In this document: positions 27,001 to 30,000 of the stretch, piece after piece | Numbering within the stretch: position 1 is the first letter of the stretch | How the letters are laid out: every line of letters starts with the position of its first letter | Assembly (NCBI GenBank): GCA_905160935.1 | Contig: CAJHZI010000656.1 | Coordinates: 339,001 to 403,000, forward strand | Direction of reading: 5' to 3' | DNA: 64,000 bases | DNA from: Enchytraeus crypticus | Lineage: Eukaryota > Annelida > Clitellata > Enchytraeida > Enchytraeidae | The notes under the pieces: generated by a model | The model's database searches: none | What the model saw: the letters and a program-made list of their open reading frames with translations, nothing else | What the model was told of the DNA's origin: nothing | Program-made: the position numbers and the translations under genes

Positions 27001-30000
27001 ATGTGTTCAATTCAACTCTTCTTCCTATGTATTGAATTTATTTCACCAATACATGGTAGATTCAACAAACAAGTAAATTCAATATATATAAAAAAAGTAA
27101 ACGAAAGGGATAACACTTTCCTACATGTACAGTTCAGCGGTGCAAACCTAGTAATTTATAAGTGACAAACAAAAGCAAATCAACGTAATTATGCATTAGA
27201 ATATTCAATATGTAGCATTTTTTCAACGTAGATCCACATTTTTAATCGCATTTTAGCATTTCTTATTTCTTAATACATTTATCAACTGTCTATCTGTACA
27301 AACTCTCCAGAACTTCCTCATTTGTAACCGTTTTGAGTGCAGCTAATCCTCTGCATTCTTCTCCAAATCCACATTTCTAATGCCTCTAGTGTCCTAATAT
27401 CTTCCTTCCTTAAGGTCCATGTTTCACATCCATATAATAGTCCAAACCAAGGTTTTCGCTATCTTTATCTTTGTCTTTCTTTAGACTTCTTGTTAAAAGT
27501 TCTTTCTTATTACCAAAGGCCACTTTTGCTTGTGTAATCCTACTGCATATTTCAGTCTCACATTTCCCGTCATCGGTTATAGTATGATCCAAATATTTGA
27601 AACTCCTTACCTGTTCCAATTTCGTACCATTTATTTTTATATTAACTTCACCTTTATTATTGGACACTCTCGTCACTTTGGTCTTTATGATATTAATCTT
27701 GATGCCATATCTCTGTGCCGTATCATTCAGCCTATCCATTATCTTCTGCAGTCTAGTTTCGCTACCCATTTCTTGGTCATCTACAAATCGTACATCTTGT
27801 AACAATTTTCCTCCTACTTTCATTCCTTCTTCCATGTCTCTCATGGCTACCTTCATCTTTGCCTCTGCGTAAATGTTAAACAGCAGCGGCGAAATGCTAC
27901 AGCCTTGTTTTACTCCACGTCCTATTTCAACTTCTTCTGAGTATTCTAGTTGAATTTTGATCCTTCAAACATATTCAAGAATTCTGCTGGGACCATCATC
28001 TATTCCGGCTGCTTTCCCCTTCTTGCTGTTAGATGCAGAATAAATTTCCTCCTTCATTATATCGGGGCCCCTTTTATTGTATTCTATTATATTTTCTTCT
28101 ATATTAAAATCCACTCGAACTGGCTTCCCAGCCTTACCATACAATTCCTCTACATATTCTCTCCATCTTTCTTTACTTCTTCAAGCTCGGTCTTCAATTT
28201 CCCATCTTTACTCATTATACTAATGTTCTGTGCATCTCCTTTCTTTTGCTGCAATTATATCGGCAATATTTGCTTCAGATTGGCTTTGACTTAGTGATGT
28301 ATGTTATAGACAACATTAATATTTTGATTTTGTTTCTTTTGTTAATGTTGTTGTTGTTGTTTGTAAGGTATCTTAGTCATTATAGCATTGATTTAGGTGT
28401 CAACTGTATAATTACAGCTCTTGCTACTAATCGTATTGTTATTGACCTTGTGGTTGTTGTTGTTGTTATTGACTTTTTATATTGCAATTCTTTCAAGCTA
28501 CTAATCTATTGTTATTGATGTTGATGTTGTGGTTGTGGTTGTTATTGACTCTATGCGTGTAGTTCAGGCTATGTTGTTGTTGTTATTATACATACAGGTA
28601 GTTCAAGCTACTAATCGTACGTTGTTGTTGATATTGACTCTATGCGTGTAGTTCAAGCTACTAATCGTATGTTGTTGTTGTTAGTATTATACATACAGTT
28701 AATTCAAGCTACTAATCGTATGTTTTTGTTGTTAATATTATTCATACAGGTAGTTCAAGCTACTAATCGTATGTTGTTGTTGTTAATATTATTCATACAG
28801 GTAGTTCAAGCTACTAATCGTATGTTGTTGTTGTTATTATTATTCATACAGGTAGTTCAAGCTACTAATCGTATGTTGTTGTTAATATTATTCATACAGG
28901 TAGTTCAAGCTACTAATCGTATGTTGTTGTTGTTAATATTATTCATACAGGTAGTTCAAGCTACTAATCGTATGTTATTGTTGTTAGTATTATACATACA
29001 GTTAATTCAAGCTACTAATCGTATGTTGTTGTTGTTATTATACATACAGATAGTCCAAGCTACTAATCTATTATTTTTGTTGTTATTATTATACACACAG
29101 GTAGTTGAAGCTGCTAATCCTATGTTGTTGTTGTTATTATTATGCATGCAGGTAGTCCTTGCCACTAACATCGCTGAAACATCTCTGACAATCGACGGCA
29201 TCATCTACGTCATCGACCCAGGATTCTGCAAGCAGAACAGCTACAACGCTCGCACCGGCATGGAGTCGCTAGTCGTAACACCGATATCAAAAGCGTCAGC
29301 CAATCAGAGGGCAGGCAGAGCCGGTCGAGTAGCTGCGGGTAAAACGTTCCGCCTGTACACGGCGTGGGCGTACAAGAACGAGCTGGAGGACTCCACCGTA
29401 CCAGAGATACAGAGAACGAATCTCGGCAACGTCGTGCTGATGCTGAAGAGTCTGGGTATCAACGATCTGCTGCACTTTGACTTCATGGACCCGCCGCCCC
29501 ACGAGACCCTCGTGCTCGCCCTCGAGCAGCTCTACGCCCTCGGCGCTCTCAATCACCTCGGCGAGCTGACGAAGCTCGGCAGACGCATGGCTGAGTTCCC
29601 TGTCGATCCCATGATCGCCAAGATGATCATTGCCTCAGAAAAGTAAGTTTGCAACAAACGCTCTGTGTGAATTATAGTAATAAAGGTTTAACGTCCGTTT
29701 CCTCATAAAGTGATGATGTCAGAGACGTCAGGACTGTGGGAATTATGAAGTAGCTACACTGAAAGAAGTTACTTTATGTGACTATATTGAATTTCTTCTC
29801 AAAATATTTGTATTATACTTACGCATTTCATAGATATTTGGTAAATGTGCAGTATTGAGACTATTTGATGTCTGTAAGTTGATAACTTTGAATTGTTGTA
29901 GTACATTATCGAATATTTCTTGTGCAGCATATATAGTATGCTGGACGGTGTACATGGATATGTATGATGTAATTTGGACCTATTTCGGAATTGCTTATAT

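Follow-up and report, generated by a model that had tools for sequence, protein, structure and literature searches.

In the splicing helicase gene DHX16 of the annelid Enchytraeus crypticus, the last 738 bases of one intron are a tandem array (array B) that is quite likely a 'mirage', a minisatellite produced by repeated tandem duplication of the intron-exon junction that it adjoins. Units that plainly hold the edge of an exon together with its splice site also occur in two further arrays of DHX16 and at exons of other helicase and myosin genes. These results show that mirages are not a lancelet oddity but are frequent in the sampled parts of an annelid genome. They offer many natural experiments in how the spliceosome chooses one acceptor among ten near-identical ones, as well as a concrete route for intron growth, shifted exon starts and, possibly, new introns.

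Array B and the exon that it adjoins

The window, a stretch of 64,000 nucleotides in contig C561 with a GC content of 35.2%, carries exons of DHX16 on its plus strand. The exon downstream of array B (29152..29642, plus strand) was located by tblastn. The best solved structure for its 164 residues was the DHX16 chain 5z56_x (E 2.2e-89), with a weaker match to a DHX8 structure (E 4.4e-68), and the protein matches bearing a specific name were to DHX16. The joined DHX16 protein was 81% identical to that of Branchiostoma lanceolatum and 84-86% identical to those of many others, Mytilus, Paralvinella and Lingula among them. COX1 on contig C802 was 95% identical to records of Lumbriculus variegatus, Mesenchytraeus and an Enchytraeidae cluster, with another Lumbriculus cluster at 90%; a lancelet origin of the DNA was rejected on these two comparisons. 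The host intron of array B (26747..29151, plus strand) is a phase 0, GT-AG intron; the donor after 26746 (GCGAGAAAG|GTATGT), the position that the first-pass annotation had given, and the phase 0 join ARK|VVLATN were both confirmed. Among 15 predicted proteins of relatives, 7 turn to unrelated sequence just before VVLATN/VILATN at this point, 1 begins there and 7 read through. That 7 of the 15 change here as they would at an intron leans against a newly made intron and suggests that the array is the younger of the two.

Several other features were observed in the window. An apparent LINE remnant lies in the host intron upstream of array B (~27400-28200, minus strand), where a putative reverse-transcriptase remnant was read by eye at 27410-28180 (minus strand); further reverse-transcriptase remnants at 4864-5874 (plus strand), 7479-7913 and 44374-45006 (both minus strand) match Pfam RVT_1. 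A TG dinucleotide repeat of ~1 kb occupies part of a DHX16 intron (19796-20818). The exon ending QEML (19500-19515) has no good donor; CTA|GTCTGT fits the frame and gives L where relatives have Q or T.

Array B (28414..29151, plus strand) consists of 14 tandem units with the layout of a 3' splice junction, that is, an intron tail followed by a counterpart of the head (~18-24 bases) of the exon that comes next. TRF called the array at 28570-29156, and a motif search added older copies back to 28414, which confirmed the approximately 14 copies of a 3' splice site that had been annotated before this exon. The units start at 28414, 28488, 28559, 28598, 28648, 28699, 28750, 28801, 28852, 28900, 28951, 29002, 29050 and 29101, and the end of the last one (29151) adjoins the exon start at 29152. 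From the 5' end, their lengths are 74, 71, 39 and 50 bases and thereafter 48 or 51; the annotated unit size of 48-54 bases was right for most of them, the full range being 39-74. The motif CAAGCTACTAATC was present with 0-2 changes in 13 of the 14 units and absent from the 39-base unit. By eye in the unit list, the central units are alike and the edge units diverged.

A typical unit runs from a TTG-rich tract through ATTAT(A/T)CATACAG to GTAGTTCAAGCTACTAATCGTATG, and the head of the parental exon reads GTAGTCCTTGCCACTAACATCGCT. Directly before the register point, CATACAG (once CACACAG) was found in ten units (28598; 28699 to 29101), while units 28488, 28559 and 28648 have no in-register acceptor and in unit 28414 an ACAG lies off register by four bases. 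The first-pass annotation had let every unit end in CATACAG, which is true of 10 of the 14, counting CACACAG, and not of the other 4. For its 'up to a dozen' competing acceptors the count is ten; the out-of-register ACAG would make eleven. These ten form a decoy-acceptor stretch (28598..29151, plus strand) upstream of the true acceptor (29151), with last bases at 28597, 28698, 28749, 28800, 28851, 28899, 28950, 29001, 29049 and 29100 (plus strand).

The proposal that the tandem repeat was derived from the intron-exon junction was supported by the alignment of the unit consensus with the exon head, which agree in register at 13 of the first 18 bases. This alignment had been set in advance as a refuting test, and the unit proved not to be unrelated to the exon: across the two strands of the window, none of the 7,413 other AG sites reached 13 of 18, the best score being 12, at 2 sites. 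When any position was allowed, not just those at an AG, 7 of 126,412 scored 13 of 18 against the unit consensus. A looser, gapped local score was weaker and was equalled by 25 of 4,000 random gene segments. The outermost unit (28414) has CTTGCTACTAA opposite the exon's CTTGCCACTAA, a resemblance that an origin of the unit from the exon would predict. Taken by itself, with 13 of 18 exon bases shared, array B could be doubted as exon-derived; the stronger support for a junction origin comes from arrays A and C, in which the unit plainly includes the edge of an exon with its splice site, and likewise from other helicase and myosin exons of the same genome.

Junction copies elsewhere in DHX16 and in other genes

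Array A (16562..16957, plus strand; TRF) comprises eight copies, at a spacing of 47-50 bases, of the end of exon 16205-16384 together with its donor (CAGTATCTGCACGAAGCT|GTACGT), located in the following intron. The exon terminates in CAAATACCTCAGTACCTACACGAGGCT|GTACGTATTG. The GT was kept in all eight copies, and the five matches shown were 85-89% identical over 38-48 bases. Pairwise alignment revealed an interspersed repeat of ~157 bases (16401..16557, plus strand) that separates array A from the true donor (after 16384). A second copy of this repeat is at ~19546-19710, and each of the two lies within ~40 bases after a DHX16 donor. Array C (30273..30442, plus strand; TRF) has two 82-base copies that are identical at 78 of 82 positions. 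Each copy takes in the acceptor and 22 bases from the start of the exon that follows (YKCTEEIL...; 30415..30739, plus strand), then CTAAGC, which also opens the unit; this 6-base repeat at both breakpoints fits a short-homology event. The arrays differ in divergence from their exons, A and C being less diverged than B, which indicates that the duplication process is recurrent. Altogether, 19 DHX16 junctions were inspected, one donor (near 19508) having been set by hand, and copies of the junction were present at 3 of them. DHX16 alone did not show an unusual number of arrays strictly spanning junctions (2 of 4; 27% of random placements reach 2).

The wider sample contained 16 stretches on 15 contigs (two on contig C376), namely, DHX16, nine other DEAH-helicase stretches and six myosin stretches. 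It covers two gene families; the exon edges outside DHX16 are the ends of protein or profile matches, and the DHX16 exons were set by hand. TRF arrays (75 in the 16 stretches) spanned 20 of 92 acceptors compared with 11.0 +/- 2.7 expected (0.2% of 1,000 random circular shifts reach 20) and 6 of 92 donors compared with 10.8 expected (98% of shifts reach 6); the spanned edges L046:1093, L047:4624, L052:2100 and L058:2331 were taken without base-by-base inspection, and edges L053:7973 and L047:5488 at least seem to be inside their arrays. This tally is a lower bound, since it omits array B, whose TRF call ends just 5 bases past the exon start; array A, which misses its junction because of the inserted interspersed repeat; and a myosin array on contig C735 that overruns the counted span.

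Self-BLAST gave a milder picture. In the helicases, DHX16 included, copies crossed 15 of 64 acceptor edges versus 5 of 64 donor edges; in five myosin stretches the counts were 3 and 2 of 26, and with both families pooled they were 18 and 7 of 90 (p = 0.03), so that the difference between acceptors and donors is mild and is absent in the myosin set alone. Random intron points were crossed at rates of 0.20 (helicases) and 0.09 (myosins), close to the acceptor rates (15/64 and 3/26), and points in the coding interior at rates of 0.02 and 0.00, respectively. Because an array that crosses an acceptor is partly coding and the coding interior is rarely crossed, an acceptor rate that equals that of free intron is itself notable. 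In the helicases, tandem copies covered 34% of the 100 bases preceding acceptors and 14% of the 100 following donors; the myosin values were 22% and 15%.

Junction-crossing copies were found at 15 of 17 DEAH-helicase acceptors that were examined closely, a fraction that is no rate, since these acceptors were preselected for flagged copies or as the two of DHX16 (the 17 being 15 helicase acceptors, with L053:7973 and L051:1968 dropped for unclear edges, plus those two). The AG was kept in 56 of the 59 copies, compared with 90% identity at other positions; the decoy AGs do not look purged. These copies are non-independent, detection favours alike ones, and the acceptors were preselected for having them. 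Among the myosins, one intron repeats the start of the following exon, TTGATTGTAG|CGGAGAGTCAGGTGCTGGTAAGACAGAGAG, which codes for GESGAGKTE, another has a 53-base unit with GATAG|AATCACGATGAAAGGAACTATC and NHDERNY in 10.9 copies, and a third stretch has a 40-base unit with GCAG|GTAACCCATTGCTGGAA in 9.6 copies. On the donor side, the end of a helicase exon, ACTCACGCAG|GTATGT, lies in a 51-base unit with 9.8 copies. No plus-strand frame of at least 150 codons was listed for the myosin stretches L057-L061 in gene orientation. One DEAH-helicase match on contig C112 (L010; G000:C112:338886-340622) extends over 558 query residues in one 724-residue open frame and is apparently intronless, perhaps a retrocopy. 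The COX1-like fragments L041-L044, on other contigs, contain TAA/TAG stops or TGA codons and are perhaps nuclear copies of mitochondrial DNA.

With these arrays in hand, other origins of array B can be weighed. Its unit could be an ordinary intronic minisatellite that resembles the exon by chance or through common splice motifs (AG|GTAGT and the branch-like string CTAAY). The limited extent of the match, the random segments that equal its gapped score and the presence of CTAAY in both exon and unit all speak for such an origin. However, an in-register match of this size occurred at none of the other AG sites, arrays A and C of the same gene plainly copy 22-27 exon bases, and the copying of exon edges recurs at many other exons of the genome; we therefore consider an ordinary minisatellite unlikely. 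Far less credible is the insertion of a dispersed repeat or mobile element beside the exon. The DHX16 introns do hold reverse-transcriptase-like remnants and a repeat that is present twice, but a search of the assembly with the array B unit (524.2 Mb in 802 contigs, common words skipped) placed it, among the matches listed, at its own locus only, as a single copy in this one assembly, and 13 further matches look TTG-driven. The best of the 13, L002, was inspected closely and rejected as an unrelated 52-base TTG-bearing array; the remaining ones align with the TTG-rich portion of the unit. An assembly artefact would be just as surprising. Draft assemblies are error-prone at tandem arrays, and one lancelet mirage is reported to be aberrantly assembled (PMC3087553), but the units of array B differ among themselves, arrays of unequal divergence recur at many junctions, and the E. 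crypticus assembly is described as built from PacBio and Illumina reads (PMC8460440). Repeated duplication of the junction remains our preferred reading.

Decoy acceptors, reading frame and a proposed mechanism

All ten decoy AGs of array B are intact, and their tracts are similar to that of the true site (14-16 pyrimidines of 25 compared with 15). At 10 of the 11 acceptors tested (nine decoys and the true one), CTAAT or CTAAC was found with its A ~32-35 bases before the exon. CAG|GT occurs at 7 decoys and at the true acceptor; a recursive splice site in array B was considered and rejected, as the donor half of CAG|GTAGTT does not match GTRAGT, the consensus stated in PMC10809524. As annotated earlier, ten consecutive units keep the frame of the exon without a stop: the VVQATN... 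frame extends uninterrupted from 28615 into the exon, and neither of the other two plus-strand frames is open. The ten units from 28648 onward are multiples of three in length, and the step from 28598 to 28648 is 50 bases. The suggestion that frame keeping may be passive also gained support. At other arrays, the distances of the decoys were multiples of three in 14 of 49 copies (49 of the 59, with nine copies of array B and one downstream of the assumed edge omitted), and the steps of array A (mostly 50 bases) and of array C (82 bases) break the frame. Since other arrays do not keep the frame, its openness in array B looks passive.

These data also bear on whether the decoys are functional, either by giving DHX16 isoforms with 16-17 residues added per unit before the conserved ATNIAET or by slowing splicing as a means of control. 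Such a role would agree with the frame that is open across ten units and with the ten intact AGs, which have similar tracts and, in nine cases, an upstream CTAAT. Against it, the frame is not maintained at other arrays, arrays A and C included, a 17-residue insert ahead of a conserved helicase strand would probably disrupt that strand, and lancelet mirages are reported to be spliced regularly (PMC3087553), which leaves a functional role quite unlikely. The decoys would instead be tolerated if, as we suppose, splicing normally uses the last acceptor, the one closest to the exon and to the donor at its far end. The branch site for this acceptor would be the CTAAT ~35 bases upstream, within the last unit, and this candidate may descend from the Ala-Thr-Asn codons of the exon. 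If that CTAAT serves as the branch site, codons of the exon would have been lent to the preceding intron.

Microsatellites occupied 21% of the last 150 intron bases versus 11% near donors and in mid-intron (15 stretches, L062 excluded). Read on the sense strand, the acceptor microsatellites (n = 64) included 49 T-rich and 7 A-rich ones, with ATTG (20) and GTT (10) among their motifs, and those in mid-intron included 127 T-rich and 42 A-rich ones. As T-rich microsatellites also lead in mid-intron, acceptors are singled out by microsatellite density and not by strand bias, and this prevalence lowered our estimate of a genome-wide hotspot. Runs of TTGA and TTG are T-rich and free of AG and could, for that reason, stand in for the polypyrimidine tract. 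T-rich microsatellites that replaced the tract in this way would be unstable, and with unstable tracts beside the AG, duplications would be frequent there. Slippage, or template switching over short homologies around such tracts, would copy the AG together with the exon head, and unequal exchange might then lengthen the array and even it out. T-rich microsatellites near acceptors may, by these steps, seed junction duplications.

The most inclusive reading is tentative, and we put it somewhat short of an even chance: the 3' splice junction in this annelid would be a genome-wide duplication hotspot, at which T-rich microsatellites serving as polypyrimidine tracts seed copies of the AG and the exon head, about 1 in 5 acceptors ends a ladder of decoys, the branch site of this DHX16 intron now comes from copied exon codons, and the spliceosome picks the acceptor nearest the donor of the exon. 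Published genome and transcriptome data would allow the possible cause, the microsatellite tracts, to be tested.

Relation to known systems

NAGNAG tandem acceptors are closely spaced competing acceptors that lie 3 bases apart, whereas in array B the spacing is 48-51 bases and whole 3' site modules are repeated. In intron gain by tandem genomic duplication, the duplicated segment reportedly carries splice signals. Array B is likewise a duplication that bears splice signals, but its host intron probably predates it.

Dual-specific splice sites in tandem repeats, for example, in polyubiquitin UBC (PMC10809524), form a series of AG|GT sites as array B does; in contrast to these, the units of array B are intronic so far as known, and their GTAGTT differs from GTRAGT. 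Earthworm metallothionein genes are reported to have intronic minisatellites and duplicates of exon 4 that are absent from the transcript (PMC12783039). The earthworms and E. crypticus are thus both clitellate annelids with intronic tandem repeats and exon copies; however, the metallothionein monomers have mean lengths of 178-181 bases and lie within intron 1, and the available part of that report does not describe junction-spanning units (PMC12783039).

The closest likeness is to the mirages of lancelets, tandem duplications of exon-intron boundaries described in Adh3, the globins BflGb6 and BflGb9, troponin C and PGBD5 (PMC3087553, PMC3902484). The literature that we found on junction-spanning mirages, in the portions available, concerned lancelet genes only (PMC3087553, PMC3902484). 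Regular splicing is reported despite the lancelet mirages, and they have been proposed as a source of new introns (PMC3087553, PMC3902484). The E. crypticus arrays differ from the lancelet cases, as these are described, in coming from an annelid and not a cephalochordate, in being drawn from 16 stretches of two gene families and not from single genes, in being biased toward acceptors and in lying beside T-rich microsatellites, and they were read from DNA alone. Both sets have boundary-spanning tandem units beside the parental junction, at either end of the intron, with many AG or GT signals intact and with central units that are alike and edge units that have diverged. Array B itself is an array of boundary-spanning units that adjoins the parental junction in its own gene, with AG/GT signals and diverged edges, and in these features it agrees with the mirages.
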